From: a virus
Length of the DNA: 63,349 nucleotides
Reading direction: 5' to 3' (one strand)
Virus record (IMG/VR): IMGVR_UViG_3300020129_000380
Coordinates: 1 to 63,349 of that record
A program made the position numbers and the translations under genes. Below the pieces are notes generated by a model that saw only the letters and a program-made list of their open reading frames with translations, ran no database searches and was not told the DNA's origin. Position 1 is the stretch's first letter. Every line of letters begins with the position of its first letter. Positions 6,125 through 45,617 of the stretch are shown in pieces.

Positions 6125-6447
6125 CCAAGCTCCCCCGCCCCCTCTCCATCGGCGAAGAACTGCTTGCCCAGCAGCTCAAGGCGTATGGCGTCGAGTTTAA
6201 CCGTCAATATGTTTTTCACCCCGGCAGGAAATGGAGATTCGATTTTCAACTTCCACTTAGATACATCGCAATCGAGGTGGAGGGCGGATTATTCGTGAAA
6301 GGCCGCCATTCTCGCGGCAAATCTTATGAGGCCGATCTTCGTAAATATAATCAAGCCACCATCAATGGATACCGCCTTCTGAGGTACTCAACCGACATGG
6401 TGAAGTCCGGCGAGGCCATCAAGCAAATAATGGAGTTCATCGAATGA
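6121..6447 (+). CDS. DUF559/Vsr-like PD-(D/E)xK endonuclease
   Basis: 108 residues. It has the order of a small restriction-fold nuclease: E12 in SIGEELLAQQL, D in WRFDFQLP, the pair IEVEGG, then GRHSRGKSYEADLRKYNQAT and GYRLLRYS. This matches phage proteins of the DUF559/Vsr-like group, likely cutting DNA during recombination or replication. The catalytic D and ExE are present, so it appears intact. Substrate unknown. Confidence 0.8.
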   Translation: MTKLPRPLSIGEELLAQQLKAYGVEFNRQYVFHPGRKWRFDFQLPLRYIAIEVEGGLFVKGRHSRGKSYEADLRKYNQATINGYRLLRYSTDMVKSGEAIKQIMEFIE

Positions 6448-6680
6448 CACAATGCCCCACATGCCACCAGCCACTACCCCTTGCCGCGGCCTTCCCCCGC
6501 GATTTGCCGCCTGTCGTGCAACTCGCACCCCCCTGGACACCCTATGAGGCCGACCGTCCGCCGGCATCACCCGAGGAACTCGCCCACACTAGCCGCACAC
6601 TGGAAGCTTACGAAGCAGGCCGCCCTGGAGGCCACTGGCAAGCCCACTTATTCAACCAGAAAACCGGAGAAGTCCTATGA
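6444..6680 (+). CDS. Hypothetical protein with N-terminal CxxC
   Basis: 78 residues, Pro-rich, beginning MTQCPTCHQPLPL. The single CxxC could be half of a zinc site. ATGA overlaps join it to both neighbours. No family recognised. Confidence 0.6.
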   Translation: MTQCPTCHQPLPLAAAFPRDLPPVVQLAPPWTPYEADRPPASPEELAHTSRTLEAYEAGRPGGHWQAHLFNQKTGEVL

Positions 6681-6823
6681 AGCCCTTTCTGAAACTTTGC
6701 CTCATTCGTATGCCTATAAGCCTTGTTACTATCGTGGCACTCGCTGCCACCCTACAGCCGCCTGATGGCTGGCAATTCATCTGCCTCATATCCTTCAGTT
6801 TTTGCCTGGGCTGGGCATCATGA
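6677..6823 (+). CDS. 48-residue membrane protein
   Basis: Short frame starting in an ATGA overlap. Two hydrophobic segments, about residues 6-26 and 33-47, suggest a two-pass inner-membrane peptide. Function unknown. Confidence 0.55.
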   Translation: MKPFLKLCLIRMPISLVTIVALAATLQPPDGWQFICLISFSFCLGWAS

Positions 6824-16411: not shown

Positions 16412-16419
16412 GGACAACT

Positions 16420-17721
16420 ATGCCCGATATCACGTTAGAGGACGTAAACACCTCCGCCCAGAACGCCCAGAAAGCGTTTGAAGCAATGAAGACCGATATC
16501 TTGCCGCTCGGCAAGAAGTTCGAAGACCTCGAAGGTACTACCAAAGACACCTTCAAAAAGATGGAAAAATCTATCTCCGATGGCATGCAGGCCACACAAA
16601 ATGCCGAAGCCAAGGCCCAAGCTGCCCTCGAAGGCCAAAAAGCCCTAGAACAGGGGATGGAGAAGATCACCACCGCTCTCAATCGCCATTCTCCTGGCGC
16701 CACGAAAGACGATGCCAAAGCATTTTCTGTAAAGCGTAACAAGCTTTTCAACGACTTCGTTCGCCTGACCCGCGGCAATGGCAAGCTCTATTTCGACGAG
16801 TATCTGGTCGAAAAGTCCGCCAATGACCCGGAACTGAAGGCCATGTCGGTCGACAGCGATCCGAACGGCGGCTTCCTTACTATGCCGGAATGGGGTGGTT
16901 TCATTCAAACCAAGGTGTTTGAATCCTCGCCCATGCGTCAGCTCGCCAACGTCACCACGGTCGGGTCGGACACGCTCGAAATCGTCGTCGATTACGATGA
17001 ATCCGATGCGAATTGGGTTTCGGAACGCCAGACACGCTCTAACACCACCACGCCCACCATTGGCAAAATCAACATCTATGCCAATGAACTCGAAGCAATG
17101 GCCCCGCTGACTCAGAAATTCCTTGATGATGCGGTCATTGACGCCGAGGCATGGATTCTGAACAAAATTGCCGACAAGTTCGCCCGCAAGGAAGCCACCG
17201 CGTTTATTACCGGCTCCGGCTCTGGCCAGCCCAAAGGCATCATGTCCTACACGTCAGGCACGACCTTAAGCTCCGGCCAGGTCGAACAGGTTGTTACCGG
17301 CAATGCTTCCGCTGTTACCCTAGATGGTTTCGTCAACACCCAGAACGCCCTGAAAGAGCCTTACCAGGCGAATGCTACCTGGCTTTATCAGCGTGCCACC
17401 AACGCCCTCGTCATGTTGATTAAGGACGGCGAATCCCGCCCCATCTTCAACATGAACTACGACAAAAACGTAGGCTTGGAACCCTCGCTTCTGGGCAGAC
17501 CCGTCCGCTTTGCCGCAGATGTTGCAGCCGTGACTGCGAGTGCTCTTGCAGCCGCTTATGGCGACTTCAAGCAAGCCTACCAGATCATCGACCGCAATAG
17601 CCTCCGCTTGCTGCGTGACCCGTATTCGAGCAAGCCGAACGTCCTCTTCTATGCCACGCGCCGCGTCGGAGGGGAGACCGTAAATTTCGAGGCTTATAAG
17701 GTCATGAAGATATCGACCTAA
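16420..17721 (+). CDS. HK97-fold major capsid protein
   Basis: 433 residues from ATG 16420. Residues 1-110 are a helical delta domain that the protease should remove. The mature part contains NGGFLTMPEWGGFIQT, the ALTQKFLDDA-type helix and TGSGSGQPKGIM, all typical of HK97 capsids. It builds the icosahedral shell. The in-frame extension upstream to 16345 overlaps the protease gene and is rejected. Confidence 0.95.
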   Translation: MPDITLEDVNTSAQNAQKAFEAMKTDILPLGKKFEDLEGTTKDTFKKMEKSISDGMQATQNAEAKAQAALEGQKALEQGMEKITTALNRHSPGATKDDAKAFSVKRNKLFNDFVRLTRGNGKLYFDEYLVEKSANDPELKAMSVDSDPNGGFLTMPEWGGFIQTKVFESSPMRQLANVTTVGSDTLEIVVDYDESDANWVSERQTRSNTTTPTIGKINIYANELEAMAPLTQKFLDDAVIDAEAWILNKIADKFARKEATAFITGSGSGQPKGIMSYTSGTTLSSGQVEQVVTGNASAVTLDGFVNTQNALKEPYQANATWLYQRATNALVMLIKDGESRPIFNMNYDKNVGLEPSLLGRPVRFAADVAAVTASALAAAYGDFKQAYQIIDRNSLRLLRDPYSSKPNVLFYATRRVGGETVNFEAYKVMKIST

Positions 17722-17751: not shown

Positions 17752-18201
17752 ATGGTTTCTCATACCAACTTACACAGCGGGACGGACTTCGTTACGATGC
17801 TCGTGCCGCTCATCCGCAACGCTGACGCCCAGTCTCTTACTCTTGACCTTGCTGACTGCGACGCGGCTGAAATCTACGCCATGATCGGTACGAACGCGGA
17901 TACCTATTCTTCCACGGACAATCTCCAGCTGGAACTTCAGGAATCCGCCGACGACGTTACCTATACGGCGTGTGCTGATGCCGACCTCACCAATTTCGTT
18001 GCCGGCACTAATACGGGAACGTTTAAGAAGCTCACTGCCAATGCTGATTGCTCGCAGACCTACGCTGTAGGCTATCGCGGCTCGAAGCGTTATCTGCAAG
18101 TGGCGGTAAACTTCGGCGGTACGCACTCCACCGGCACCTCGATTGCTATCTTAGGTGTACGCGGCCGCAAGCGTATCCAACCCGCACAGAGCTTCACTTA
18201 A
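17752..18201 (+). CDS. Capsid-adjacent structural protein (decoration candidate)
   Basis: 149 residues following the capsid gene. It reads as a beta-sandwich (LELQESADDVTYTACADADL, YRGSKRYLQVAVNFGG), like small head-decoration or head-fiber proteins in the same position in other siphoviruses. A strong hairpin follows, as is common after highly expressed capsid genes. Role inferred from position and composition. Confidence 0.65.
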   Translation: MVSHTNLHSGTDFVTMLVPLIRNADAQSLTLDLADCDAAEIYAMIGTNADTYSSTDNLQLELQESADDVTYTACADADLTNFVAGTNTGTFKKLTANADCSQTYAVGYRGSKRYLQVAVNFGGTHSTGTSIAILGVRGRKRIQPAQSFT

Positions 18202-18208
18202 GCAACTT

Positions 18209-18240
18209 ATGGGGAGGTGGAAACATCTCCCCATTTATTT
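18209..18240 (+). terminator. Hairpin terminator or attenuator after capsid genes
   Basis: Perfect 8-bp stem ATGGGGAG (18209-18216) and CTCCCCAT (18227-18234), 10-base loop, followed by TTATTT. Likely trims expression of genes downstream of the capsid. It ends just before the GGAG ribosome site of the next gene. Confidence 0.7.
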
Positions 18241-18251
18241 GGAGAATACCC

Positions 18252-18881
18252 ATGAAAAGACTTATTTTGGCGGCAATGGCGGTTCTCTTCGCCTACCCCG
18301 CCCTCGCCTTCCCGCCATGCTATAATACCAGCACTACCCGAGTCGTGGATAGCGGCTGTACCCAAAATGTCAAAAGCGGCGGTACGTTCACTGCCGATAG
18401 TGGTTCTACCGTAACTCTTTCCGGCACTACCACCATCGGAGGCACGCTAAATACGAGTAGTGTTACGATGAGCACTTCCCTTACCGGAAACCCGTTGATG
18501 CAATTTACTCGTAAAGACCTTACGGTTTCTACGGACATTGCCAGCACTGCCCTTACGACCATTCTGGCTTCCGTGGCTGGTAAAACGATTTACCCAGACC
18601 TCGGCGGCATTTCCATCATGGTAAGCGGTTCCGCGGCATCAGCCACCTCCCTTGCCCTGGAATGCGGTGACGGTACTCTCATTGCCTCATGGCCCATCGC
18701 CGACCTGACTGACTTAAAACCAATCGGCGTCGGCCTTTACCTCTCCACCCAAAGCACCATCACGACGGGTGCCGGTGGAATGGGATGTGCCGCCAGCTCC
18801 GGCATTTATCTGTCGAACGTCGGCACGAAAATCACAACGACCACTCACGTTTACGTCAGCGTACCCTACATCGTTCAGTGA
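18252..18881 (+). CDS. Signal-peptide-bearing beta-rich protein in virion operon
   Basis: 209 residues from ATG 18252 (GGAG upstream). Residues 1-18 are a clear Sec signal peptide (MKRLILAAMAVLFAYPALA). The mature part is Ser/Thr/Gly-rich and beta-repeat-like (SGSTVTLSGTTTIGGTLNTS), resembling phage fiber or tailspike material. A Sec signal on a likely virion or surface protein is unusual. It might be exported to the envelope instead. Confidence 0.65.
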   Translation: MKRLILAAMAVLFAYPALAFPPCYNTSTTRVVDSGCTQNVKSGGTFTADSGSTVTLSGTTTIGGTLNTSSVTMSTSLTGNPLMQFTRKDLTVSTDIASTALTTILASVAGKTIYPDLGGISIMVSGSAASATSLALECGDGTLIASWPIADLTDLKPIGVGLYLSTQSTITTGAGGMGCAASSGIYLSNVGTKITTTTHVYVSVPYIVQ

Positions 18882-19924
18882 TTCCTGCTTTACTACACGC
18901 CATTGCCCTGGCGATTGCGCTATCGGTTCAATATATCGCATCGCCTCTCGCCGGGACGTGGCTCTTCTTTCACCTCGCGGGATGTGCCGTACTTTTAATA
19001 GATGGTTATCCTAAGAGGGACATACTTTGGTATTGTTCCCTTGCATGGTTACTCGCTATAGGGGACTCTGCCTTCATCTTGGCGCCTGTAATAACTGCAA
19101 GCCCTTATATGTGGGTTCTCGCCGCCGCTCCCATGATGGCGCTTTGCCTTCATCCTAAACATCTGAAACCCTACATAATCTCCTTCGGAACGGTTATCGG
19201 ACTCTTTTCCGCCGGGTTAGTCGTTCAATGGTTATTACAAGTCCATTACACCGCCACCCATGTTGAGTCAGGTTATGCATGGCCGCTACTCGATCCGAAC
19301 AACGCCGCCGCAGTTATAAACTGCGCCCTCATTCCCGCATTCGCTTTGGGGATGAAGAAACCGAAATACCTTTTTCTCGCCGGGTTCTTTGCTTTAGCCC
19401 TAGCCCTCACGCAAAGTAAAGCCGGTGTGGCGATGGGGATTCTAGGATGTACGCTGGTTTCGGGGATGCCTTTCCTGATTCTTAATGTCATTGGCTTCTC
19501 ACTCGTCCTTTCGACCCCCTTTTGGGATTGGCAGGCCGGATATAATCATCTCCTGCATTCCTTCGCTGATAGGTTTCCAATCTGGGAAGCAAGTGCCAAA
19601 TTACTCTTCGTCGCCCCATGGACCGGCTTAGGAATAGGGTCGTTTAGTTTTTATTACGCCCAGGTACGAACAGAAACCTTTACCGCAGGGAGCTTCGCCC
19701 ACAATGACCTTTTGCAATTCGCTATCGAATTAGGCTTCCCGCTTGCGATGGCCTTTGTCGTCCTCATGTTCGCCGTTCTTTTAACCACACGCAAACACAA
19801 CCTAGTATCTTTCGCTGTCATGCTTGCCGTCTTCATGCAGGCGATGATTGAGTTTCAATTCTACATCCCGTCCATCAGCCTTTTAATGGGCTTAGCCCTC
19901 GCTTATCAAAGGAAACCCGCATGA
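18878..19924 (+). CDS. O-antigen polymerase/ligase-like membrane protein (Wzy/WaaL type)
   Basis: 348 residues from GTG 18878, coupled by GTGA to the gene before. About ten hydrophobic helices are visible. A periplasmic loop is followed by WTGLGIGSFSFYYAQ and FAHNDLLQFAIELGFPLAM, the signature of the Wzy_C/O-antigen ligase family (Gly-x-Gly, then His-Asn-Asp-x-Leu-Gln). Such enzymes join O-antigen or related glycan units on the outer inner-membrane face. In some temperate phages a Wzy changes the surface glycan of lysogens and blocks further phage. Finding it inside the head-tail gene cluster is odd. Confidence 0.8.
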   Translation: MIPALLHAIALAIALSVQYIASPLAGTWLFFHLAGCAVLLIDGYPKRDILWYCSLAWLLAIGDSAFILAPVITASPYMWVLAAAPMMALCLHPKHLKPYIISFGTVIGLFSAGLVVQWLLQVHYTATHVESGYAWPLLDPNNAAAVINCALIPAFALGMKKPKYLFLAGFFALALALTQSKAGVAMGILGCTLVSGMPFLILNVIGFSLVLSTPFWDWQAGYNHLLHSFADRFPIWEASAKLLFVAPWTGLGIGSFSFYYAQVRTETFTAGSFAHNDLLQFAIELGFPLAMAFVVLMFAVLLTTRKHNLVSFAVMLAVFMQAMIEFQFYIPSISLLMGLALAYQRKPA

Positions 19925-20319
19925 AAAGACTTCTTTTTGTCCTCATTTTCACCTCTTTCCCCGCCTTTGCGGACGTAAACAGCTATATCGACCCCCGCCA
20001 GCAACTTACGGCTACTTTTGCTTCCGGCGCCACCACCGCAACGGAACTCGACCTCGGCGGCACAATGATCGTCGGAATCCAGCTCCCCGCCACTTTCACC
20101 GGCACCGCCTTAACCTTTTCAGCGGCCACTACTTCAGGAGGGACATCCCAGCTCGTAAAGGATGGCGCCGGCAACTCGATAAGCAAGACCGTCGCCCAGG
20201 GACAATACATCGCCATTGATCCTACCCTCTTCAAGGGTATCCGCTTCGTCAAAATTATTAGCGGTTCAACGGAAGCCGCCGCCCGTACCGCAACCGTCAT
20301 CACCATCCCCGCACAATGA
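19921..20319 (+). CDS. Second signal-peptide-bearing beta protein
   Basis: 132 residues. N-terminus MKRLLFVLIFTSFPAFADV is a Sec signal peptide with cleavage after AFA. The rest is Thr/Ala/Gly-rich, a beta domain (LDLGGTMIVGIQLPATFTGT) like phage or pilus surface proteins. ATGA-coupled to the polymerase gene. Function unknown. Confidence 0.65.
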   Translation: MKRLLFVLIFTSFPAFADVNSYIDPRQQLTATFASGATTATELDLGGTMIVGIQLPATFTGTALTFSAATTSGGTSQLVKDGAGNSISKTVAQGQYIAIDPTLFKGIRFVKIISGSTEAAARTATVITIPAQ

Positions 20320-20326
20320 GGACATC

Positions 20327-20542
20327 ATGAAACCGCACAAAATCCTAAAGACGTTCAAAGGCACCCAAACCGGCCATGGGGACGGGGAGACTTTTGAAGA
20401 AGGTACCGTCCGCGACCTTTCCAAACATCTTGCTGAAGTGGTTGTCCCCGCCGGCTTCGCAGAACCCGTCATAGAAGCCCGCGAAACCAAGGTAGTTGAG
20501 GTTCAGGAAACCAAGCCCGCGAAAGCCCCGCGTAAGAAGTAA
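20327..20542 (+). CDS. Small hypothetical head-tail region protein
   Basis: 71 residues from ATG 20327. It has a KTFKGTQTGHGDGETFEEGT start, like small proteins preceding connector genes in many siphoviruses, and a basic Pro/Ala/Lys tail. Stop is followed immediately by the next ATG. Role unknown. Confidence 0.7.
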   Translation: MKPHKILKTFKGTQTGHGDGETFEEGTVRDLSKHLAEVVVPAGFAEPVIEARETKVVEVQETKPAKAPRKK

Positions 20543-21181
20543 ATGCGCCAATCCTACACCCTTTCCGCCGCTCCTACCACGGAGCCGGTCACACTCGCGG
20601 AAGCGAAATCATGGGCGAAGATTGACGCAGACGATGATGATTCCCTCGTTCAACAATTGATAACCGCCGCAAGGAACTCCGCCGAAGAGTATATGAGGCG
20701 GTCTCTTATCACCCAGACATGGAAGCTCACGCTCGACCGCACCCCGAACAGCCTTTATAACGCTCTTGGCTCAGGGGTTTTCGATATGCCCCTTTCCGCC
20801 CTCTATGACGGGATTTCAAACTGCATCGAACTCCCGCGAGGTCCGGTTCAATCGGTCACGTCGATAACGACTTATGATACTACGAACACCGGAACGGTTT
20901 TCGATAGCTCAAATTACTTCGTCGATCTCGCCGGATGGAGAGTTACACTTAATTCCGGCTGCACCTGGCCGACAAGCGTACGCCTAACGGCAGCCGTTGA
21001 GGTTCTTTACGTCACCGGATATGGCGCAAGTGCCTCTTCCGTCCCGCAGCCGATTAAAACCGGCATTTTGATTCATATCGCTTCGATGTACGAACAAAGA
21101 GGCCAGACGGATGATGCCATGGATATTCCACCGGGTGCGAAACAACTCTACAACCAATTCCGCGTCATGGGCAAACGGTGA
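20543..21181 (+). CDS. Head-tail connector (HK97 gp6-like adaptor)
   Basis: 212 residues. The N-terminal EPVTLAEAKSWAKIDADDDD and LITAARNSAEEYMRRSL form the typical helical part of gp6-like adaptors, with a beta insertion and a C-terminal helix (IKTGILIHIASMYEQRGQ). It forms the ring below the portal. Slightly longer than usual because of the beta insertion. Confidence 0.88.
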   Translation: MRQSYTLSAAPTTEPVTLAEAKSWAKIDADDDDSLVQQLITAARNSAEEYMRRSLITQTWKLTLDRTPNSLYNALGSGVFDMPLSALYDGISNCIELPRGPVQSVTSITTYDTTNTGTVFDSSNYFVDLAGWRVTLNSGCTWPTSVRLTAAVEVLYVTGYGASASSVPQPIKTGILIHIASMYEQRGQTDDAMDIPPGAKQLYNQFRVMGKR

Positions 21182-21600
21182 AGTACGTCCGTAATGTCAC
21201 ATTATTCCGGGATAGGCTCACTATCCAGAATAGTTATCTCGACTCTGACGGACAAGGAGGCTCGACCGAAACCTGGGTTGATGGGTCTACTATCTGGGCG
21301 AATATCCAGCCCATGAAAGCCTACGAAAAGTTACAGGCGATGCAAATGCAGACGCCCGTAAGCCACAAGATAACCGTCCGCTATACCACCGAGCTTAATC
21401 CGTCCAGCCGCTTGGTCTCAGGAACCCGGACATTCTGGGTTAAGGAAATAATCAACGACGATGAACGCGGGCGGTTTTTAATCCTCAAAGCTATCGAGCG
21501 CGTGACACCGCCCCAGCTCATCGCCGAAGACGCAGCTTTGGCTGAGGACAGCTCACTTATTCTGCTCGAAGATTCAAAAACTATGTTCATGGAAAGCTAA
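21178..21600 (+). CDS. Head-tail joining (stopper) protein
   Basis: 140 residues, GTG start in a GTGA overlap. The pattern RLTIQNSYLDSDGQGGSTET, then WVDGSTIWANIQPM, and RYTTELNPSSRLVSG matches Phage_H_T_join/SPP1 gp16-like stoppers. Residues after 110 form an extra acidic tail (AEDAALAEDSSLILLEDSK) not typical for the family. Confidence 0.85.
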   Translation: MKYVRNVTLFRDRLTIQNSYLDSDGQGGSTETWVDGSTIWANIQPMKAYEKLQAMQMQTPVSHKITVRYTTELNPSSRLVSGTRTFWVKEIINDDERGRFLILKAIERVTPPQLIAEDAALAEDSSLILLEDSKTMFMES

Positions 21601-21601
21601 T

Positions 21602-22954
21602 ATGGGCGAGAAAGTCAGCGAGCTAGATGCCGTAACCGAAGTAACGGGTGATGATATCCTTTACCTCATCCAGGATGGCGATAGCAAAAAAGCCACCGTC
21701 GATCAGGTTCTCGCCGTCGCTCCGCCTGCTTACAAACCTCAGATCGTCACCACAAGGAACAACCTCCTTAACGCACTCCGTCAAGGCACCGATGATGCCC
21801 GGAACGATATAAGAGTCCAAAACCGCCAGAAATATTATGTCGGTTCACAAGCTGTTTCCCAACTTCAAGTAGGGCAATGCGGGTTTTACCTAAAAAACGA
21901 CAGCACTGCCGAACACGTCCTACCCAATGATTACACATGGGAAGCGGCAATAGAAAGTATTACTCCGTCAACCTATCAGCAAGCCTTCGCCCAAGGGATT
22001 AAGCTACCAGTGATACAAGGCAGTGCCGGCATCCCCCTGGTGCTCAGCGACCCGATTGGGCTGGATCTCGCCGCCGGATCATCGTTTTGGTTGCGTCAAT
22101 CCATCCTGGTTTCCACGAGCAGCCAATATATTCCCGGAAGCACCCACCTCGCCGGGGCTACCGATACCGGCTGGATTTCCCCCGCCGCCACTTCCCAAGT
22201 CCCCGGAACCGGAGATATGACCCTTCCCGCTTCGGGAGCTGGATTCGGCGGGCCGCAAGCGATTATCCTTGGGATTCCAGCCGCCCCGATGGCCTCGGTA
22301 TGCTTCGTAGGGGACAGCATTGCTGACGGTACTTACGACGTGGCGGACGCCACCGGTAATTACGGCTTCTTCGCCCGCGGCCTTAGCAGTGTTAACGGGT
22401 ATCCCGTCCCGTACATAAGCCAAACCATCGGCGGAGACCAGTTCGCCGTCAATACTTATGCCTACGCTCCCAGAAAGAGGGTTTTCTGGCCGTATGTCAC
22501 GCATCTCGTCATTTCGCTTGGCACAAACGACATTTTCTCGAACAACGCCAGTCTTTCAACGCTGCAAACCTATGTAACGGACATGCTAACCGCAGCCAAA
22601 AGGACTATCGGTCCGTATGGGAAACCCCTCCAAACCGCCGTTGTAACCCTGTTCCCGAGGACAAATTCAACCGATTCATGGGCTACGGCCGCGAACCAGA
22701 CAACCCAAACGCACATGGACGTGGGCGGAGTAAGGACAACGTACAACGCATGGCTTGCTTCCATTGCTGGGGGTGATTTACTCGACGCTGTAATCGACGT
22801 GAATACTTACGTCGAAGACCCCTCAAACCCCGGAAAGTGGCTCACCAACGGAACTGCGAATTACCCAACGCCCGACGGCACCCATCCCGCTAGCGCTTTA
22901 CACATTCTGGCTGCCCAGGCCGTCCATAACTGGGCTTTAACCATCACGCCATAG
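21602..22954 (+). CDS. SGNH/GDSL hydrolase with virion-type N-terminus
   Basis: 450 residues. The N-terminus (SELDAVTEVTGDDILYLIQD) is the short anchor found on phage fiber proteins. The hydrolase part has block I VGDSIADG (Ser239), block III LGTNDI (about 307-311) and block V DGTHP (His about 428). It likely removes acyl groups from or otherwise cuts a host surface glycan. It lies three genes after the polymerase-like gene, so this phage appears to both remake and attack surface polysaccharide. Confidence 0.82.
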   Translation: MGEKVSELDAVTEVTGDDILYLIQDGDSKKATVDQVLAVAPPAYKPQIVTTRNNLLNALRQGTDDARNDIRVQNRQKYYVGSQAVSQLQVGQCGFYLKNDSTAEHVLPNDYTWEAAIESITPSTYQQAFAQGIKLPVIQGSAGIPLVLSDPIGLDLAAGSSFWLRQSILVSTSSQYIPGSTHLAGATDTGWISPAATSQVPGTGDMTLPASGAGFGGPQAIILGIPAAPMASVCFVGDSIADGTYDVADATGNYGFFARGLSSVNGYPVPYISQTIGGDQFAVNTYAYAPRKRVFWPYVTHLVISLGTNDIFSNNASLSTLQTYVTDMLTAAKRTIGPYGKPLQTAVVTLFPRTNSTDSWATAANQTTQTHMDVGGVRTTYNAWLASIAGGDLLDAVIDVNTYVEDPSNPGKWLTNGTANYPTPDGTHPASALHILAAQAVHNWALTITP

Positions 22955-23315: not shown

Positions 23316-24431
23316 GTGACCGCGGCACTTTCGGCGGTCGGCGTACAATATGTTAGCATAACGATAGCCGCCGGCAGTACATCCAACACCGCTACAATTA
23401 CCGCTGTTGGCACTGGCGGATTCATCATCTTGATGGGGCAATCCTGCTCCGGCAGCCAAACCTCCGAAACAAAAGGTTTGGCAAGGGTTGAGCTAACCAA
23501 CACGACAACTGTCACTGCTAATCGAAATACCTCCGACGCCTCCTTAACGCTCACCGTAAAAGCCTGCGTTGTTGATGGCGACACGACGAACCTTATTAAA
23601 TCCGTGCAGTCTGGCACGATTGCCCTCTCCACCGTCCAGACGAGCAACACCGCCAGCATCAGTGCTGTAACCAACAATAACACCGCCACGGTCATCCTAG
23701 GCTTCACCATGGGTGGTGATTTGACCGACCAACTTCAGGCTATGCAATGCCGATTAAGTCTTGCAACGACAACCGTCACCGCCACCCGAAACTCTGCACA
23801 ATCAACGGCAATGACCGTGGGCTTCCAGTGCATCGAGTTTCAGGGCGCCGCACTTAATTCCGCCGTCCAGAATATATCCAAAACATGGACGACGGGTACA
23901 TCCGCAACCAGTACGATCACCAGCGTAACGGCAGCTAACAGCTGGCTGGCGAATGCAGGGAATACCTCAAATACCAGCACTTCTGTTAACGCTTTTATAC
24001 CAAACAAGAAGATTACCAACGCCACCACCGTCACTTTCGCTACGAATGCCGACCCCGGCGGCGGGACGAATATTAGCAATTGTACGGTAGTTGAGTTTGT
24101 CGCTGGCGTCCTGACAGCCAATGCTGTCCAGCGCGGAACGGTGTCCTTATCAGCCGCCTCCAGTGGGACATTGACCATTACCAGCGTCACGCAGGCTCAG
24201 GCGATGACCAATTGGCTTAATAACACCACAAGCACAACGAACGTCAACAACGAAACCAGCTTTTACCAATCCGCCTTTACCAACGCCACCACGATCACTG
24301 TAAGTGATACGGCAAGCGTTACTGGTATCGGCTCTATTGAGGTCATTGAATTTAACCCGGTGGCGGCAGGGGGTACGTTTAATCCCGGCTGGGCATATGG
24401 AGCAACTAGAATTATTGGGGGTGTGTTTTAA
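23316..24431 (+). CDS. Four-repeat beta-domain protein
   Basis: 371 residues from GTG 23316. Four related units of about 90 residues begin near residues 7, 90, 188 and 272 with VQ-x(2)-(S/G)-x-(I/T)-x-(I/L)-S/A, followed by TSxTxxIxxVT. Each reads as a beta-sandwich like a phage-type surface domain. It probably forms a head or tail surface structure. It ends in a TAATG overlap with the large fiber gene. Confidence 0.65.
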   Translation: MTAALSAVGVQYVSITIAAGSTSNTATITAVGTGGFIILMGQSCSGSQTSETKGLARVELTNTTTVTANRNTSDASLTLTVKACVVDGDTTNLIKSVQSGTIALSTVQTSNTASISAVTNNNTATVILGFTMGGDLTDQLQAMQCRLSLATTTVTATRNSAQSTAMTVGFQCIEFQGAALNSAVQNISKTWTTGTSATSTITSVTAANSWLANAGNTSNTSTSVNAFIPNKKITNATTVTFATNADPGGGTNISNCTVVEFVAGVLTANAVQRGTVSLSAASSGTLTITSVTQAQAMTNWLNNTTSTTNVNNETSFYQSAFTNATTITVSDTASVTGIGSIEVIEFNPVAAGGTFNPGWAYGATRIIGGVF

Positions 24432-27400
24432 TGTTTCGTAAAAATACCGCCTCGCAATTCATTCATTTTCAGGGTGTTGATGCGACGACCGGCGGCATTA
24501 AAAGCGGCGTTACATGGACAGCCAGGCGTTGTATTGACGGCACCTTTGCAGCGGCGGGCGGTACTGCTACTGAAGACGGTACAACGGGCTGGTATAAATT
24601 CGCCATGACCCAGGCCGACACGAACGGCAATAACATAGGCTTCAATTTTACCGGCACTGGCGCGATACCGCAGACCGTAAATATTATTACTACGGCGGCT
24701 GATCCTACGGATTCAGTACGCTTAGGGCTAACCGCGCTCGCTAATGCAAGTGCTGGTGCATCAGGCGGACTTTTAATATCTGGCTCAAATTCCGGCACAA
24801 CGACGCTTGCGGCTTTGACAGTAACAGGTACGACCACCCTCTCTGATGGCTTGGTGGTAAATCGCAGTACATCGAATGCCGACGCAGTGGCGTTTACCGG
24901 ATCAGGTTCAGGTAACGGCATGACTATCGCGGGTGGGGCAGGTGCCACTACGACCGCAGGCGGTATCGGCGTCAAAATCACCGGAGGTACTGGAGGCACC
25001 ACAGGCGCTTCTGCCGCGGGAATGAGTATTGTCGGCGGCGCAGCGGGATCAACATCCGGTAATGCTTCACCCGGCATCACCACCACCGGAGGTGCAGCAG
25101 CAGCCGGAACAGGCGCCGGTGCTGAAGCTATCAAGGCCACGGGCGGGGCTGCATCGACCACAGCCGCCGGAGGAAATGCCGTCACCGTTACAGGTGGTGT
25201 TGCGGCAACGGGCTTTGCCGGCGGCAAAGGCATCGCAATCACCGGAGGGGCGGCTTCGACCACGGGTGCAGGCGGGGCTGGCGTCACAATAAACGGGGCT
25301 GACGGCGGCACTACAGGCGCAGGCCAAAACGCTATTACGATCACTGGTGGGGCTTCGGGTACAACGTCCGGTGCGGCAGGGCATGGTGTTTCCGTCACCG
25401 CAGGGGCGGCAACCGCAGGCTCAGGTGCAGCGGGAGCCGGATATAACATCGCCGGGGGTGCCGCCACATCGACCGGAGTAGCCGGGATAGGTTTCAAAGT
25501 CACAGGCGGAGCCGGGGCAGCCTCTACCAATGGGGCAGAATCCGCCGTAACTTTCACCGGAGGTGGTACTAATACCGTCGCCAGCAACGCATATGGCCTC
25601 CTCGCGACCGGTGCTAGTACGGGTGATGGCGGAAGATTCTCATCCGGAACCGGTGCGACCGGCACTGGCCTAGTCGCAATCGCAGGCTCGACCAACGGCA
25701 ACGGCATGAGCTGCGTCGGCACAGGCACCGCCCCAGGCATAAGGACGGCGGGCGGTTCAACCGGTCACGGCATACGTGCTATCGGCGGGGCCTCTTCCGG
25801 CCACGGCCTGCAATGCGAAGCCACGGCTGGTTCAGGCGTAAACGCCGCTGGCGGGGGAACGACCCAAGCCGGGATCACGGCAACAGGCGGTGCAACGACT
25901 TCAGCCGGGCTGTCACTCATCGGTGGCGGAACTTCCGGTGCCGGCCTCCTCGTTCGCACCACATCCGGCCATGGCGTCGATATTGCAGCAACCGGCACGT
26001 CCATGCACGGCATTACTACCACTGGAGGCAACGGCGGCACCTCGGATGGCTTTAAGTGCGTTGCGGGAACCGGTGGCGTGGATATACGCGCCAACCGTAC
26101 CGGAAACCTAACGGGAACGGTCGATACCGTCACAACTACGACCACCGCCACCAATTTAACGAACGCCCCTACCAATGGCGATCTCACTTCCACCATGAAA
26201 ACCTCGGTTACGACAGCTTGTACAGCTTCCACCCCCACGGTGACAACGGGAACTATCTCAGCAAATGCCATAAACGCCGCGTCGATAAACGCCGACACAG
26301 GGCTAATCATCCGTGCGAATACTGCCACTAATTCAGCTGCCAGCACCTTAACCCTTGACGGAAGTGCCTCTGCCACTGCGGATTATTACAAAGATTGCTG
26401 GCTCGTAATCACTTCGGGAACCGGTGTTGGCCAAGCCCGCAGAATATCCACCTACTCAACGGGCAGAGTGGCCACGGTGTCCCCCGCATGGGCGACCACT
26501 CCCGCAACGAACTGCACCTTCGCTGTTCTCCCGGCTGGCAGGGTTGATGTTGATGCCATCCTCGGCACTGCATCCCCGGCCGCCGCTGGTTACGTTGCCC
26601 CAGATTGGAACGCCATAAACGCCCCGACAACCACGGTTAACCTGAGCGGCACCACGATTAAAACCGCCACTGACATCGCAACAGCGACAACCAGTATTCA
26701 GGCCGATACCGACGACATTCAAAGCAGGCTCCCCGCAGCCCTTGGCGCAAATGGTAATATCAAGGCCGACATTCGGGACTTCAATGGCACCGCAGGCACA
26801 TTCTCCGCAGGCCGCCCGGAAGTAAATACCACCCACTGGAAGGGAACCGCTGCGGCAACCGTTGACACGGCGGGATACCCCGTCGTCACCGTCAAAGACG
26901 GTACTGGCCAGGGTGAAATCGCCACCACATCAGGTGCCATTGATACGGTAGCCGCTGTCACCACCGTCAACGGCCTCGCTGCGAACGTGATTACCGCCGC
27001 TGCCACAGCAACAGATTTTGGCACCGAAATAGCAAACGCCATTTGGGACACCGACGCCACCGGCCACCAAACGCAAGGAACCTTTGGGCAAGCCATAGGC
27101 GACCCCGGCGCCGATACCGACACTATCTGGGGGCTTACCAACACGAATCTTGATGCCGCTGTTTCCTCCCGCATGGCCACCTATACGCAACCCACCGGAT
27201 TCCTTTCCGCAACGTTTCCTTCCGGCACGATAGCAAATACTACGAACGTCACATCCGCATCAGGGGTGACTCTGACCTCCGCTTACGATCCGGCCAAAAC
27301 CGCAGCACAGGCTGGGGATGCTATGAGTATTTCCACCACCGGACTCGCCCGCATGTTCACACAAGATAGCGGAACAACTTACACTTCTGCCGTGGCCGGT

Positions 27401-27673
27401 TCTGTCGTGAGTGAAATAGCGGCAAATGCCGGGGGATCTGGCTTAACCGCTAATGGAATAGCCGACGCACTTCTCGACCGCACCGATGGCGTGGAAACCG
27501 GTCGCACCGTCCGCCAGATACTCAGGGGCATGGCTTCTGCGTTACTTGGCAAGGTCTCAGGCGGAGGAACAGGAACCGAAACCTTCCGCGACACAAACGA
27601 CTCCAAAAACCGAATTGTGGCCGTTGATGACTCAAGCGGTAACAGGACATCCATTACTCTGGACTTAACCTAA
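24431..27673 (+). CDS. 1080-residue Gly/Ala/Thr repeat fiber protein
   Basis: Domain order: residues 1-95, an N-terminal attachment domain (FIHFQGVDATTGGIKSGVTW, then GTATEDGTTGWYKFAMTQAD) common to phage fibers; about 140-560, short degenerate repeats of 10-15 residues based on GGAxxTxGAGGxGVxITGGA; 560-870, a beta part; then a C-terminal part ending with a conserved-looking LRGMASALLGKVSGG segment. The repeats probably form an elongated, glycine-rich fiber. No catalytic site seen. Confidence 0.8.
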   Translation: MFRKNTASQFIHFQGVDATTGGIKSGVTWTARRCIDGTFAAAGGTATEDGTTGWYKFAMTQADTNGNNIGFNFTGTGAIPQTVNIITTAADPTDSVRLGLTALANASAGASGGLLISGSNSGTTTLAALTVTGTTTLSDGLVVNRSTSNADAVAFTGSGSGNGMTIAGGAGATTTAGGIGVKITGGTGGTTGASAAGMSIVGGAAGSTSGNASPGITTTGGAAAAGTGAGAEAIKATGGAASTTAAGGNAVTVTGGVAATGFAGGKGIAITGGAASTTGAGGAGVTINGADGGTTGAGQNAITITGGASGTTSGAAGHGVSVTAGAATAGSGAAGAGYNIAGGAATSTGVAGIGFKVTGGAGAASTNGAESAVTFTGGGTNTVASNAYGLLATGASTGDGGRFSSGTGATGTGLVAIAGSTNGNGMSCVGTGTAPGIRTAGGSTGHGIRAIGGASSGHGLQCEATAGSGVNAAGGGTTQAGITATGGATTSAGLSLIGGGTSGAGLLVRTTSGHGVDIAATGTSMHGITTTGGNGGTSDGFKCVAGTGGVDIRANRTGNLTGTVDTVTTTTTATNLTNAPTNGDLTSTMKTSVTTACTASTPTVTTGTISANAINAASINADTGLIIRANTATNSAASTLTLDGSASATADYYKDCWLVITSGTGVGQARRISTYSTGRVATVSPAWATTPATNCTFAVLPAGRVDVDAILGTASPAAAGYVAPDWNAINAPTTTVNLSGTTIKTATDIATATTSIQADTDDIQSRLPAALGANGNIKADIRDFNGTAGTFSAGRPEVNTTHWKGTAAATVDTAGYPVVTVKDGTGQGEIATTSGAIDTVAAVTTVNGLAANVITAAATATDFGTEIANAIWDTDATGHQTQGTFGQAIGDPGADTDTIWGLTNTNLDAAVSSRMATYTQPTGFLSATFPSGTIANTTNVTSASGVTLTSAYDPAKTAAQAGDAMSISTTGLARMFTQDSGTTYTSAVAGSVVSEIAANAGGSGLTANGIADALLDRTDGVETGRTVRQILRGMASALLGKVSGGGTGTETFRDTNDSKNRIVAVDDSSGNRTSITLDLT

Positions 27674-29493: not shown

Positions 29494-29916
29494 ATGAAAC
29501 ATCTTTGTCTCGCCCTCTTTTTCGTTCTTTTCGCAGGAAGTGCTTTCGCCGCTACCCTTTCCGTCCAAAACCTATCCCTCACCGGACTTATCAGTTCGAC
29601 CCTCGCTTCAGCTTCGACGGGCGATAAGTTCCTAAACAACGGAAACACATTCCTACTGTTCAGCAACGGGAACGCCTCTTCGCGTACTCTCACGCTAACT
29701 GTGCAGAACGCGACCGTGAACACGGCAGGTTACAACCCTCTTACCGTCGGCAACCCGACCGTAACCCTCCCCGGCAGCGGAACGAACGGCGGTTTAGCCC
29801 TTGTAGGGCCTTTCGGTCAGACCCAATTCAATGACGGCACCGGCATGTTGAACTACACCCTTGATAACGCCACGGGCATGAACGTCGCCGTCATCAACAT
29901 GCCCCGCCTGCCATGA
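29494..29916 (+). CDS. Third signal-peptide-bearing protein, in tail operon
   Basis: 140 residues. MKHLCLALFFVLFAGSAFAA is a clear Sec signal peptide. The mature part is a Ser/Thr/Asn-rich beta domain (SSRTLTLTVQNATVNT). It sits between major tail protein and tail chaperones, where virion genes are expected. Its export is puzzling; an envelope or superinfection role is possible. Confidence 0.65.
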   Translation: MKHLCLALFFVLFAGSAFAATLSVQNLSLTGLISSTLASASTGDKFLNNGNTFLLFSNGNASSRTLTLTVQNATVNTAGYNPLTVGNPTVTLPGSGTNGGLALVGPFGQTQFNDGTGMLNYTLDNATGMNVAVINMPRLP

Positions 29917-33684: not shown

Positions 33685-35865
33685 ATGTGGATTCTCCCGT
33701 TTCTTATTGCGTTCTTTACTCCCACTCCCGCTCACGCTGATCCCGTATCGCTAACCGCCGCAGCCATCGCTGCCGCTGAGTCAATAACCTGGGCCGACGT
33801 TGCCATTTTCGCTCTCAAAACCGTCGCCGCAATGGTCGTGTCTTCGGTCTTGAGCCGCGTCTTTGCCCCGCATCCGAAACAGCCCAACTTCGCCCAAGCT
33901 TCACAGGATTTCGGCGTCATGGTGCGGTCGAGCATCGAAACCCACAAAATCATATATGGCCAGGCGAAAGTCTCTGGTCCGCTGGTCGCCGTCGCAACGA
34001 CAGCCGACACAAATCAGTTCCTACACATGGTCATTGCCCTGGCCGGCCATGAAGTCTCGGAAATCGGCACGATTTACTTTGAAGACGTCCCGCTCAGCGT
34101 CAGCACAGACGGCTGGGTTACGAGCGGAGCCTACCCGAAAACCACTTCCTCAGTTGCCCAATCCATCTCATCCGCCTCCCGCACGGATGGCATAGTCACC
34201 GTCACCACCGGATCTTCGCATGGCTTCAGTGTTGGCGATCAAGTCGTCATCAAAGACCAAAGCGTGGCTTCTTTTAACGGCACGTTCATTATCCTCACCA
34301 CACCCAGCGGAACTACTTTCACCTACGCCACCGGCGGCGACAACGGCTCATCCACGGGCGGGACTGCGACAGATACAACGAACAATTCGGCTACAGACAG
34401 CTACGCCCGCATCAAAAAGTTCCTCGGCGCCGATGACCAGGCTGCGTCGACCGACCTCATCAACGAATTTCCCGGCTGGGATTCCGATCACACACTTTCG
34501 GGAATCGCCTACATCTACATCCGCCTCGAATATAACCGTGATATCTTCACGCAAGGCATTCCAAACGTAAGTGCCGTCGTCAAAGGAAAGAAAGTCTACG
34601 ATCCCCGTACAACCGGCTACGCATGGAGCGACAATGCCGCCCTTTGCATCCGGGATTACCTGACCAGCGATTACGGCTTTAATTGTGACTCAACCGAAAT
34701 CAATGATACCTATTTCACTTCCGCCGCTAACCATTGCGAGGAATCCGTCACCCTCACGACCGGCGGCTCGCAAGACCGTTATACCTGCAACGGCGTACTC
34801 GACACCGCATCCGCCCCAAGCGATAATCTCAATGCCCTCGTTGCCGCTCTGGCAGGAACCGTAACTTACGTTCAAGGCCAATTCCGCTGCCATGCCGGGG
34901 TTTATGACGCTACCGTGGGAGATATCACCACCGCCATGCTCGCCGGGGGAGTCAAGATCCAAGCGAGAACGACGCGCCAGCAACTTTTCAACGCTGTGCA
35001 GGGAACCTACACCGACCCGAACAAGAATTGGCAACCTACCGACTTCCCAGCGGTCACAAATGATACCTACACGGCACAAGACAATCAGCAAATCTTCAAA
35101 GACATCCAACTTCCTTTCACGAACCAGCCCGAAGCTGCCCAACGCATCGCCAAGGTTATTCTCGAACAAGCCCGCCAAGGAATCACCATCGAACTACCTC
35201 TGAAGCATTCGGCGTTGCCCTACGCCGTCTGGGATACCTTTACCTACACCGACCCGGTTTTGGGATGGGACCATAAAGTATTCCGCATCCGCAAACTCAG
35301 CACGACCGGGATAGGACCGATTACCATTTCTGCCCAGGAAGAAGCATCTACCGCGTATGATTGGGATTCCGGCGAAGCGACCACCATTGATTCCGCCCCC
35401 GATACCAACCTTCCAAATCCCTTCTCCGTAAATGTCCCCACCGGGGTTGCGTTCAACTCCCGTGTCATCAGCTCGACTGGCACCGACCAGATTTATGAAC
35501 TCGGCCTCGTCTGGGACAACCACGCCGATTTCTTCGTCTCTCAAGGGGGCAAATTCGAGGTGCAATTCAAGCTTTCCGCCGATTCCGACTGGAAGCCGTC
35601 TTTCGCCGTCGATGGCAACCTCATGTCCACCGATATCGCTGCGGCTTCCATCAACACCAGCTACGACATTCGCATACGAGCACGCAACAATCTCGGCGCC
35701 TCATCTGCATGGGTAACGATTCTCGGAGCAGTCGCAGGCTCATCCGGTGGCGTCGGGACGACCGCCGATTGGACAAATTGGACTAACGCCGTCGGCACAA
35801 CCGCCGATTGGGATAACTGGACGGATGCCGTTGGCACGTCAAATGATTGGGGATTCTTTACATGA
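33685..35865 (+). CDS. Tail tip/receptor protein (gpJ-like)
   Basis: 726 residues. N-terminus has a hydrophobic, signal-like start (MWILPFLIAFFTPTPAHADP), then AQASQDFGVMVRSSIETHK and IYGQAKVSGPLVA, hallmarks of tail-tip hub proteins. A 60-residue insertion (SVAQSISSASRTDGIVTVTT) is a surface beta domain. The C-terminus has a fibronectin-like domain and three WTNWT-type repeats (ADWTNWT, ADWDNWT, NDWGFF). It should bind the receptor and plug the tail. Confidence 0.85.
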   Translation: MWILPFLIAFFTPTPAHADPVSLTAAAIAAAESITWADVAIFALKTVAAMVVSSVLSRVFAPHPKQPNFAQASQDFGVMVRSSIETHKIIYGQAKVSGPLVAVATTADTNQFLHMVIALAGHEVSEIGTIYFEDVPLSVSTDGWVTSGAYPKTTSSVAQSISSASRTDGIVTVTTGSSHGFSVGDQVVIKDQSVASFNGTFIILTTPSGTTFTYATGGDNGSSTGGTATDTTNNSATDSYARIKKFLGADDQAASTDLINEFPGWDSDHTLSGIAYIYIRLEYNRDIFTQGIPNVSAVVKGKKVYDPRTTGYAWSDNAALCIRDYLTSDYGFNCDSTEINDTYFTSAANHCEESVTLTTGGSQDRYTCNGVLDTASAPSDNLNALVAALAGTVTYVQGQFRCHAGVYDATVGDITTAMLAGGVKIQARTTRQQLFNAVQGTYTDPNKNWQPTDFPAVTNDTYTAQDNQQIFKDIQLPFTNQPEAAQRIAKVILEQARQGITIELPLKHSALPYAVWDTFTYTDPVLGWDHKVFRIRKLSTTGIGPITISAQEEASTAYDWDSGEATTIDSAPDTNLPNPFSVNVPTGVAFNSRVISSTGTDQIYELGLVWDNHADFFVSQGGKFEVQFKLSADSDWKPSFAVDGNLMSTDIAAASINTSYDIRIRARNNLGASSAWVTILGAVAGSSGGVGTTADWTNWTNAVGTTADWDNWTDAVGTSNDWGFFT

Positions 35866-36842
35866 CGACAGCGACACAAACACAAATCCGCAGAGATACA
35901 GCGACCAATTTGACTGCCGCCACTCCCGCATCCGGAGAATTAGGTTACGACACCACGAACAAGCGTCTTGTCATCGGGGATGGATCTACCGCGGGTGGTA
36001 TCAAATGCACCATGGCCAAAGACCTGCAAAACCAAACATTCATCGCAGGAACCGTGGGCGGTACAGGCGATGTCATCACTTTGACGAATTCGCCCGCCAT
36101 CACCGCCTACGCTTCAAACCAGAAATTCAGCTTCAAAGCCGGGGCCTCAAATACGACGGCTGCCACCATAAACGTTGATGGACTCGGTGCGAAGAACATC
36201 AAGAAAATGCTCGACAATGCTCTTGCTTCTCTCGTCGCGAACGACATCATCAGCGGCGGCGAATATGAAATCATATACGATGGCACGCAGTTCCAAATAT
36301 TGGGCTTGCCCAACAAAACCCCTTCGGTCGGCGCACTGGTTTATCTCGGCACATTCACGGCCAGCGGCAGCGCAACCCTCGACATCACCAGTGCAATCTC
36401 GTCCACTTACAATGATTATAGACTCGTCCTCGACAATCTCTTACCAGCCAGTGTAGGCGTGAACCTTTTAATCCGGATGAGTTCCGACAACGGATCGAGC
36501 TTCGACAGTGCGGCACATTATGCCGCTGTTACCAGCGGTTTCGTTTCCAGTAGCTCCACTGCTACCATCAACAATCAAAACGGTGCCTCATCCATACGGG
36601 CCGTGACGACCATCGGATCGGGTTCTAAGGTGTCCGGAACTATCGATCTCTTTGCTGTGAACACCGCCACCTTCCAATCAGTTGACATAAATCTAGCTAT
36701 TACTGACGGCACTAACGCCACCGCTTCTAAGGGCGCGGGCATGTGGTCGAATTCCGCCGCTTACAACGCCGTGCAATTCCTCATGTCCAGCGGCAATATT
36801 ACATCTGGTAACGTCAAAATCTACGGCATTGCAAAAGCATGA
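35862..36842 (+). CDS. Tail fiber protein
   Basis: 326 residues from ATG 35862. N-terminal TQIRRDTATNLTAATPASGE and LGYDTTNKRLVIGDGSTAGG form the common peptide linking fibers to the tail tip. The rest is beta-rich with an insertion of Ser/Ala/Thr (FVSSSSTATINNQNGASS). Likely the host-range fiber. ATGA-coupled to the tip gene. Confidence 0.82.
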   Translation: MTTATQTQIRRDTATNLTAATPASGELGYDTTNKRLVIGDGSTAGGIKCTMAKDLQNQTFIAGTVGGTGDVITLTNSPAITAYASNQKFSFKAGASNTTAATINVDGLGAKNIKKMLDNALASLVANDIISGGEYEIIYDGTQFQILGLPNKTPSVGALVYLGTFTASGSATLDITSAISSTYNDYRLVLDNLLPASVGVNLLIRMSSDNGSSFDSAAHYAAVTSGFVSSSSTATINNQNGASSIRAVTTIGSGSKVSGTIDLFAVNTATFQSVDINLAITDGTNATASKGAGMWSNSAAYNAVQFLMSSGNITSGNVKIYGIAKA

Positions 36843-39849: not shown

Positions 39850-40032
39850 TCAGCCTGCATTCAGCGAAGATAAATGCCCTTCCACATCCTTTTCTTTCCA
39901 GCGGATCAACTTCCGATTGAAACGGATCGGCTTAGGAAATTCCTTACGTTGAACCATCCTATCGAGCGTCCTTTTATCCACACCTAGCATTGTGGCGACT
40001 TGCTCGCGGGTCAATAATTGCTGCTCAGACAT
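39850..40032 (-). CDS. AlpA/HTH_17-like DNA-binding protein
   Basis: 60 residues. LLTREQVATMLGVDKRTLDR and KEFPKPIRFNRKLIRWKEKD are the two halves of an AlpA-type winged helix, used by phage excisionases and small activators. It is last in the TerD-DUF475 operon; an 8-base overlap with that gene. Could be a second excisionase or a regulator of this operon. Confidence 0.78.
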   Translation of the reverse strand: MSEQQLLTREQVATMLGVDKRTLDRMVQRKEFPKPIRFNRKLIRWKEKDVEGHLSSLNAG

Positions 40033-40936
40033 GGCGATGCCTTATGGACGATATGAGGGATAACGCAATACACGACAGCCCAATCATGCCGGTAATCGGC
40101 TCCGGAACTGGATAAAAGATGTTGGCGAGCATGATAACCGCCAAAGCTCCGATTCCATAATGTGCCCCGTGTTCAAGGTAAATATACTCTTTCAGCGTCC
40201 CGCCCCGGACAAGATACAGCGTTAGTGACCGGATGACAAAAGCACCCATCCCAAGGCCGATCATAATCAGAACGATATTCGTGGTCAGGGCGAAAGCTCC
40301 GATCACCCCATCGAGCGAGCAGCTTGCGTCCAGCACTTCGAGATAGAGAAGCCCCATCAGGCCGCGTTTGTTCTCGCATCCGCCGTCGGTATCGAAAAGG
40401 CCAGTAAAAGCCTCAATCAGCATATATGTGCCAATGCCAAGCAAACCTGACAGCAGGCAAGTCATTCGCCCTTGAAGCGTGGGAATGAAATATTGAATGC
40501 CAACGAGGACAGCTCCGGCAACGATAATTTCCACCCCCTTAAGTAGCCCAAGCGTGGATAGGCGGCTTTCGATCCAATGCAGCCAATGGGTTTCGCGTTC
40601 GTTATCGAACCAAAAGCTCAGGAATACCATCAAAAGGAATATTCCGCCGAAGGTCGAGACGTTGATTCTGGATTCTTCCAAATGTCGGCCATATTCTTCT
40701 GGCGAGTTAAGTGCCATATTGATGACATCGATCACCGGTAGCGAAGCGGCAATTGTGACGATCAAGACCGGGAATACCAAACGCATACCGAATACAGCGA
40801 TCACAATGCCCCAGGTTAGGAATCGACGTTGCCATTTCGCGGACATGCCCTGTAAAATTTTGGCATTGAGAACAGCGTTGTCGAATGAAAGCGATACCTC
40901 CATGAAAGCCAGAAGGATAAGGGTGAAGACGATCAT
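40025..40936 (-). CDS. DUF475/TerC-like integral membrane protein
   Basis: 303 residues from ATG 40936 (ATGA with the peptide upstream). About nine membrane helices. FMEVSLSFDNAVLNAKIL and LEVLDASCSLDGVIGAFALT carry the paired acidic helices of the TerC superfamily, with the length of DUF475 proteins encoded in ter operons. These proteins are tied to metal handling and to tellurite, phage and colicin resistance. Together with TerD it forms a stress cassette on the phage. Confidence 0.85.
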   Translation of the reverse strand: MIVFTLILLAFMEVSLSFDNAVLNAKILQGMSAKWQRRFLTWGIVIAVFGMRLVFPVLIVTIAASLPVIDVINMALNSPEEYGRHLEESRINVSTFGGIFLLMVFLSFWFDNERETHWLHWIESRLSTLGLLKGVEIIVAGAVLVGIQYFIPTLQGRMTCLLSGLLGIGTYMLIEAFTGLFDTDGGCENKRGLMGLLYLEVLDASCSLDGVIGAFALTTNIVLIMIGLGMGAFVIRSLTLYLVRGGTLKEYIYLEHGAHYGIGALAVIMLANIFYPVPEPITGMIGLSCIALSLISSIRHRHV

Positions 40937-41019
40937 TTTCCCCACCACCGAACGAACCTGATGGCTTGATAAAGCAAGAAGCAAACCCCCAGGAATATGA
41001 GTAAATCCAACATAATCAT
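40933..41019 (-). CDS. 28-residue membrane peptide
   Basis: ATGA-coupled on both sides. One hydrophobic helix (LDLLIFLGVCFLLYQAI) and a basic Trp-rich tail (RFVRWWGK). Possibly a small subunit for the DUF475 protein. Confidence 0.55.
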   Translation of the reverse strand: MIMLDLLIFLGVCFLLYQAIRFVRWWGK

Positions 41020-41240
41020 CGGCGGCACTCCCCACCAACAGCCGACAAGGGAAGGCACGACAGCCCCCCTTGCTTGCTATCAGCGTCGAGAAAGCATACC
41101 GCCTCGTAACCGCCGGGCTTGCACACTGCGTATACGCCCGTCAGCGTCACCATACGTTTGAAGCCGCCCGCCCCCATCATGCCCCAGGTGCCGAAAATGA
41201 TGACGAGCACGACAAGACTTAAGGACGCCCAAAGCTTCAT
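41016..41240 (-). CDS. Small exported or membrane protein
   Basis: 74 residues from ATG 41240 (ATGA overlap). N-terminal hydrophobic segment (LWASLSLVVLVIIFGTWG), then a Cys-containing polar domain. Part of the TerD operon. Function unknown. Confidence 0.6.
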   Translation of the reverse strand: MKLWASLSLVVLVIIFGTWGMMGAGGFKRMVTLTGVYAVCKPGGYEAVCFLDADSKQGGLSCLPLSAVGGECRR

Positions 41241-45302: not shown

Positions 45303-45617
45303 TTACATTGACATTCCGCCCCGACTCATTTCGGGCTGATCGATTTCGTGTGATTGCGAAATCTCGGGTTGTTGCACTTCGACGCTCGGCTGCCCTACTT
45401 GATGCGGATACATGACGAATCCACTTCCATTGAACAGCCCGGCGGCGATCTCCGACGCCCCGAGGGGAATCAGGTGGTCGGCTGCCTGTCCCATCCCCTC
45501 AAAAAGCGTTCCCGCGACTGTGGCGACACCGCCCAGAAACGCCCCCACACCCTCCTTGATACCCTCCGTCACAGCTTCCGTTGCCGTGATGCTCTGAAAT
45601 TCCTCTTGCGGACTCAT
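45303..45617 (-). CDS. Gly/Ala-rich amphipathic protein
   Basis: 104 residues from ATG 45617 (ATGA with the coupling-protein stop). The centre (GVGAFLGGVATVAGTLFEGM) is Gly-rich and membrane-active in look; the C-terminus is Gln/Glu/Ser-rich and extended. No family recognised. Being co-translated with the coupling protein suggests a shared role. Confidence 0.6.
   Translation of the reverse strand: MSPQEEFQSITATEAVTEGIKEGVGAFLGGVATVAGTLFEGMGQAADHLIPLGASEIAAGLFNGSGFVMYPHQVGQPSVEVQQPEISQSHEIDQPEMSRGGMSM

Follow-up and report, generated by a model that had tools for sequence, protein, structure and literature searches.

A Wzy_C/WaaL-superfamily gene in the head operon of a tailed phage, paired with genes for predicted exported virion-type proteins

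Introduction

WaaL- and Wzy-type enzymes work on the periplasmic side of the membrane, with undecaprenyl-pyrophosphate (Und-PP) glycans as their donors. Wzy genes found in phages are regarded as genes of lysogenic conversion, through which the host coat is remodelled. We describe here a gene for the same type of enzyme that lies in a virion operon and that, in several unrelated phages, is coupled to genes for exported virion-like proteins.

Phage-encoded Wzy_C enzymes as such are already known (PMC4815439, PMC9241936, PMC9658991). Those most similar in kind to the enzyme studied here, as phage-encoded membrane enzymes of the Wzy_C type, are Wzy-beta of phage D3 and its relatives PMG1, phi297, PP9W, and VarioGold p25. 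In D3 the gene lies near attP on the opposite strand, with the tail fibre gene on one side and the endolysin gene on the other; VarioGold p25, likewise in opposite orientation, lies between the lysis genes and attP. WzyPh1, encoded by an A. baumannii prophage, is a glycan polymerase that uses a host-made repeat unit; its gene sits near a prophage end, and it has been shown to change the capsule linkage. Among bacterial enzymes, R215, R288, and H338 have been named as important in WaaL and are conserved in PglL, and PglL genes are known to lie next to the genes of their target proteins (PMC3643930).

A Wzy_C gene between capsid and connector genes

The stretch of DNA analysed, hereafter the window, is an entire IMG/VR record of 63,349 bp whose phage backbone comprises an HK97 capsid and siphophage tail genes. 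A tyrosine integrase (42928–44151) identifies it as a temperate phage or an integrated element. Genes for the large terminase (terL, from 11984), portal (13191), head morphogenesis protein (14584), and protease (15776) lead to that for the HK97-type major capsid protein (16417–17721) and, directly 3′ of it, a putative decoration protein (phrog_5707; 17752–18201). An 11-bp hairpin followed by TTATTT (18209–18234), which might be a weak terminator or attenuator bordering the cassette, separates the decoration gene from sp1 (18252–18881), which encodes a predicted exported protein of 209 aa rich in Ser/Thr (32%). Then come the 348-aa Wzy_C gene (18878–19924; hereafter wzy) and sp2 (19921–20319), the signal-peptide form of a virion-cluster protein. 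A small head-module protein (phrog_2616; 20327–20542), a head-tail adaptor (20543–21181), and a head closure protein (21178–21600) follow; from the capsid gene onward, all of these lie on the plus strand. The earlier note had placed the gene between two signal-peptide proteins in the head operon, and this arrangement is borne out, with sp1 and sp2 as its neighbours, capsid and decoration genes on the 5′ side and connector genes on the 3′ side. Its further claim that this position is unusual agrees with the published phage examples, as D3 wzy-beta and VarioGold p25 both lie outside the head operon.

We verified the open reading frame of 18878–19924 on the plus strand. Although the frame is open from 18785, translation most sensibly begins with the GTG at 18878, within a GTGA that also holds the sp1 stop codon, whereas at the other end the TGA stop of wzy (ending at 19924) overlaps the ATG of sp2 (19921) as ATGA. 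From these overlapping codons, 4 nt each with sp1 on the 5′ and sp2 on the 3′ side, we infer that wzy is translationally coupled to both neighbours. A promoter of its own was not detectable on the plus strand.

Assignment to the WaaL superfamily

Sequence profiles confirmed the predicted product of 18878–19924 as a polytopic membrane protein of the Wzy_C/WaaL superfamily. This upholds the proposal, made in the earlier note, of a Wzy/WaaL-like enzyme with a Wzy_C signature. The window enzyme matches Pfam Wzy_C (PF04932) with an E-value of 7.5e-8 and 32.7 bits, about one bit over the cutoff of 31.7, and its residues 273–285 read FAHNDLLQFAIEL. Four phage homologues reach 38.9–58.3 bits; the second copy in the L099 record, at 25 bits, is under the PF04932 cutoff, and the records of the other relatives are above it. 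When a profile of seven phage homologues was compared with all PDB sequences, the sole match was WaaL of Cupriavidus metallidurans (7tpg/7tpj; E 2e-10, positions 9–320). Searches of PHROG with the window enzyme gave no match, and those of NCBIfam nothing meaningful; its plasmid matches were weak O-antigen ligases. Compared directly with D3 Wzy-beta, it gave a negligible match (hhalign probability 1%), in which the R...HN motif is nonetheless in register.

Residues were mapped in an alignment of the window enzyme that included E. coli WaaL and five plasmid-borne proteins of the ligase family. The catalytic Arg and His, whose alignment the earlier note had proposed as a check, were both located: R232 corresponds to WaaL R288 and H275 to H338, and the two are invariant in our alignments A4 and A14. 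The position of WaaL R215 is more variable, being occupied by K181 in the window enzyme, by Gln in L098, and by Arg in L099, L100, and the bacterial homologues; judged from the alignment, the change to lysine is conservative, though not identical. The window enzyme thus shares with WaaL the superfamily and the equivalents of Arg288 and His338, and differs from it in the Lys at Arg215, in being encoded by a phage, and in its location in a virion operon with apparent coupling to exported proteins. With the PglL-type O-oligosaccharyltransferases it has in common the Wzy_C domain and a gene beside those of candidate exported targets (sp1, sp2). Unlike these, however, it matched neither PglL_A (PF15864) nor Wzy_C_2 in a Pfam scan even at E ≤ 10, most PglL-specific residues are absent (the H/E/P motif plausibly retains just its Glu), and no pilin is encoded nearby.

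A crude hydropathy scan of the long open reading frame indicated seven trans-membrane segments, while an AlphaFold2 model built on an alignment showed about ten long helices; this model is weak (pLDDT 58, pTM 0.51), and the one built without an alignment reached a pLDDT of 46. For the structural comparison with WaaL that the earlier note had suggested, the weak alignment-based model was used. Its top VIA match was 7tpg (238 residues aligned, rmsd 5.5), ahead of FtsW and PglB, at a Z-score of 10.1, a value that helical bundles can reach by chance. Foldseek ranked RodA/FtsW first, without significance, and a BFVD fold search returned no match. Superfamily membership derives from the sequence profile, with which the predicted structure agrees.

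Relatives in unrelated phages

When the window enzyme or capsid was used as a single sequence to scan viral and genome contigs, nothing matched; nor did a scan of genome contigs with an alignment (A8) give a match, so that these scans yielded no prophage from any named host, and tblastn against named phage records found no relative of the window enzyme, L110, or L099. Alignment-based scans of IMG/VR, in contrast to the single-sequence ones, uncovered relatives with 32–44% identity to the window enzyme in three other, unrelated phages. These are L098 (40% over the full length), whose 38.8-kb contig holds a second wzy copy (L114), L115 (44%), and L102 (32%). L099, L100, and L111 form a more distant group. 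Two separate Wzy_C genes on one contig were observed twice, in G046 (L098 and L114) and in G047 (L099 and L111).

The backbones of the L098, L102, and L115 phages differ from that of the window in their terminases, portals, or replication genes. The sites of the gene vary as well: it overlaps the portal gene in L098, lies between terL and portal in L102, and is found just upstream of terL in L100, arguing that genes of this kind were acquired by packaging or head modules on more than one occasion. We found no Wzy_C in any of the 50 searched records of capsid relatives of the window phage, and wzy is thus no standard part of this head module. The same absence would be expected if wzy were passenger cargo, that is, a host glycan gene caught by chance in the head operon and devoid of present function. 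We consider this very improbable, however, as the frame is open, the catalytic residues are conserved, the 4-nt overlaps are intact, and homologues are maintained in unrelated phages.

The L115 phage encodes a DNA polymerase, a helicase, and a primase of its own, and neither a tyrosine nor a serine recombinase was matched in its contig, which may be incomplete. Lysogenic conversion is therefore unlikely to be the sole role of the gene there. This bears on the classical explanation for phage Wzy genes, according to which the enzyme would polymerise or ligate repeat units of the host's O-antigen or capsule through an altered linkage and thereby modify the phage receptor, sp1 and sp2 being mere operon-mates. 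D3 Wzy-beta (PMC4815439) and A. baumannii wzyPh1 (PMC9241936), both Wzy proteins, do so, and the window holds an integrase; we regard surface-glycan conversion as almost as probable as the reading preferred below. Against it speak, besides the relative in a phage without a recognisable integrase, the moron positions and opposite orientation near attP of the known examples examined, whereas wzy is tightly embedded in the head operon and has no detectable plus-strand promoter, and a recurrent pairing with signal-peptide genes that conversion leaves unexplained.

Pairing with signal-peptide genes

At six of nine phage Wzy_C loci (the window, L114, L115, L102, L099, and VarioGold, where p25 follows p26) a signal-peptide gene lies directly upstream, while none does so at the first copy in L098, at L111, or at L100. 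The upstream stop and the wzy start are joined as TAATG in L114 and as ATGA in L099, and in L115 the start follows 1 nt after the stop; together with the GTGA of the window, this means that in four of the six linked loci no more than 4 nt lie between the upstream stop and the start codon, the gaps in L102 and VarioGold being ~30 nt and 14 nt. Measured against a crude background of 16 signal-peptide proteins among 221 ORFs (7.2%), six of nine corresponds to a binomial probability of 1e-5, and four of seven, with the window and VarioGold left out, to 8e-4—figures that come from small, partly ascertained numbers and a home-made signal-peptide predictor. This linkage suggests that the enzyme works with, and perhaps glycosylates, exported phage proteins.

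The N-termini of sp1 (MKRLILAAMAVLFAYPALA-F) and sp2 (MKRLLFVLIFTSFPAFA-D) look like textbook Sec signal peptides, as called here and below by a simple home-made script and by eye, and hence crudely. Homologues of sp1 directly 5′ of wzy in L114 and L115 share ~33% identity, two invariant cysteines (C138 and C179 of sp1), and a common C-terminus, Y-(I/T)-(V/I)-Q. In a reciprocal IMG/VR scan the sp1 family matched only in two contigs already known to bear wzy. The upstream proteins of L102, L099, and VarioGold are not recognisably sp1-like. More distant versions of sp1 occur in L037, with a signal peptide, and in L007, the closest capsid relative, apparently without one.

The sp2 family has members without signal peptides in the head modules of L007 and L028. 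In L095, with a different virion module, an sp2 relative does carry one in the absence of wzy; signal peptides alone hence do not predict wzy, and we rejected a link by signal peptides as such. Two signal-peptide proteins were observed in the L095 virion module (649–1188 and 6359–6769), which belongs to a phage with a different backbone. A further case in the window is the tail protein of phrog_16194 (29494–29916, plus strand). Its relatives in L006 and L026 begin with MATLTVQ, whereas the window protein has a 19-residue signal peptide, joined at residue 2, and then continues with ATLSVQ. By these predictions, some virion-type proteins of the window phage carry signal peptides that their relatives lack. 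The phages of L114 and L115, the two others with the sp1-wzy pair, have tail-fibre-like proteins that start with predicted Sec signal peptides (L110, 5907–8939 and 9074–9910; L120, 1462–3537 and from 14415 onward). The open-access literature searched held no precedent for exported structural proteins of tailed phages or for phage oligosaccharyltransferases. Signal peptides on ordinary tail and head proteins raise a testable question, namely what role these proteins have outside the cytoplasm.

As a conserved two-gene unit, sp1-wzy might also be read differently, with the exported partner regulating or inhibiting the polymerase of host or phage, in a role like that of D3 Iap or of a co-polymerase of the Wzz type, and both proteins together redirecting host glycan synthesis. 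D3 does pair its polymerase with the inhibitor Iap. Yet sp1, apart from its signal peptide, has no trans-membrane segment, and its likeness is to virion-cluster proteins (L007, L037), not to Wzz or Iap, and the exported partners in L102, L099, and VarioGold are no recognisable sp1 homologues, which makes such a role improbable to us.

A possible role in modifying exported phage proteins

The reading we prefer, and hold tentatively, is that the Wzy_C enzyme acts on, or together with, an exported partner, the acceptor being sp1 and perhaps sp2. In its favour are the recurrent pairing, the Ser/Thr-rich and disulfide-capable nature of the partner, the operon position, the L115 contig without a recombinase match, and the signal peptides that further virion-type proteins in these phages carry. 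Substrate and acceptor are inferred here, as are timing and benefit. The periplasm-facing WaaL/Wzy-type enzyme, of presumed GT-C fold, would draw on the lipid-linked (undecaprenyl-PP) glycans of the host and transfer a glycan to sp1 and possibly sp2, much as PglL-type O-oligosaccharyltransferases do to pilins encoded next to their own genes. The wzy gene and those for the exported virion-like proteins would then form a cassette inside the structural-protein operon. Since we saw no gene for lipid-linked glycan synthesis among the phage ORFs scanned, donor glycans would come from the host whether the enzyme serves an exported partner or the host coat. A possible benefit might lie in a sugar coat on phage proteins, be it at the cell or, once lysis has occurred, on virions.

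Several observations weaken this exported-partner reading. PglL_A is not matched, three loci have no signal-peptide gene directly upstream, L095 and L037 have exported virion-type proteins but no wzy, and the residue at WaaL R215 is Lys in the window and Gln in L098. Moreover, tailed virions assemble in the cytoplasm, which leaves the joining of an exported protein to the particle unexplained. Its most specific form—a phage protein O-glycosylation unit, in which Sec-exported virion-type proteins would be glycosylated in the periplasm by the WaaL-type enzyme encoded next to them, with a host lipid-linked surface glycan, so that host sugars end up on phage proteins of the cell or of released particles—appears rather unlikely to us as a whole. 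Should the enzyme glycosylate exported proteins, phages could dress their own proteins in host sugars, and this would bear on adsorption, superinfection exclusion, and the recognition of phages. In the literature searched we came upon neither the head-operon position nor the conserved sp1-wzy pair of unrelated phages, nor the link to exported virion-type proteins; if the enzyme did glycosylate proteins, the departure from the known phage Wzy_C enzymes would be greater still.

Other features of the window

The head-tail module also encodes a GDSL/SGNH esterase (21602–22954), and MW202897 (L003) likewise encodes one such GDSL protein between its capsid and connector genes. Further downstream, a 1080-aa protein without any family (24431–27673, plus strand) lies in a local GC peak (65% at 25–26 kb), and opposite its gene runs an open frame of 423 aa (24469–25740, minus strand). 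The protein encoded at 35847–36842 has the N-terminal domain of a major tropism determinant (Mtd); since the large window ORFs scanned included no reverse transcriptase, a diversity-generating element is not evident. Close to the integrase, a DUF475/TerC-family membrane protein (phrog_30252, moron category) is encoded at 40025–41038 on the minus strand. Finally, minus-strand genes for a type IV secretion coupling protein of the TraG/TraD type (45614–47317; E 8e-51) and a large helicase/relaxase-like protein (51532–54426) lie beside the integrase, pointing to a conjugative or mobilizable element that abuts, or is fused with, the prophage.
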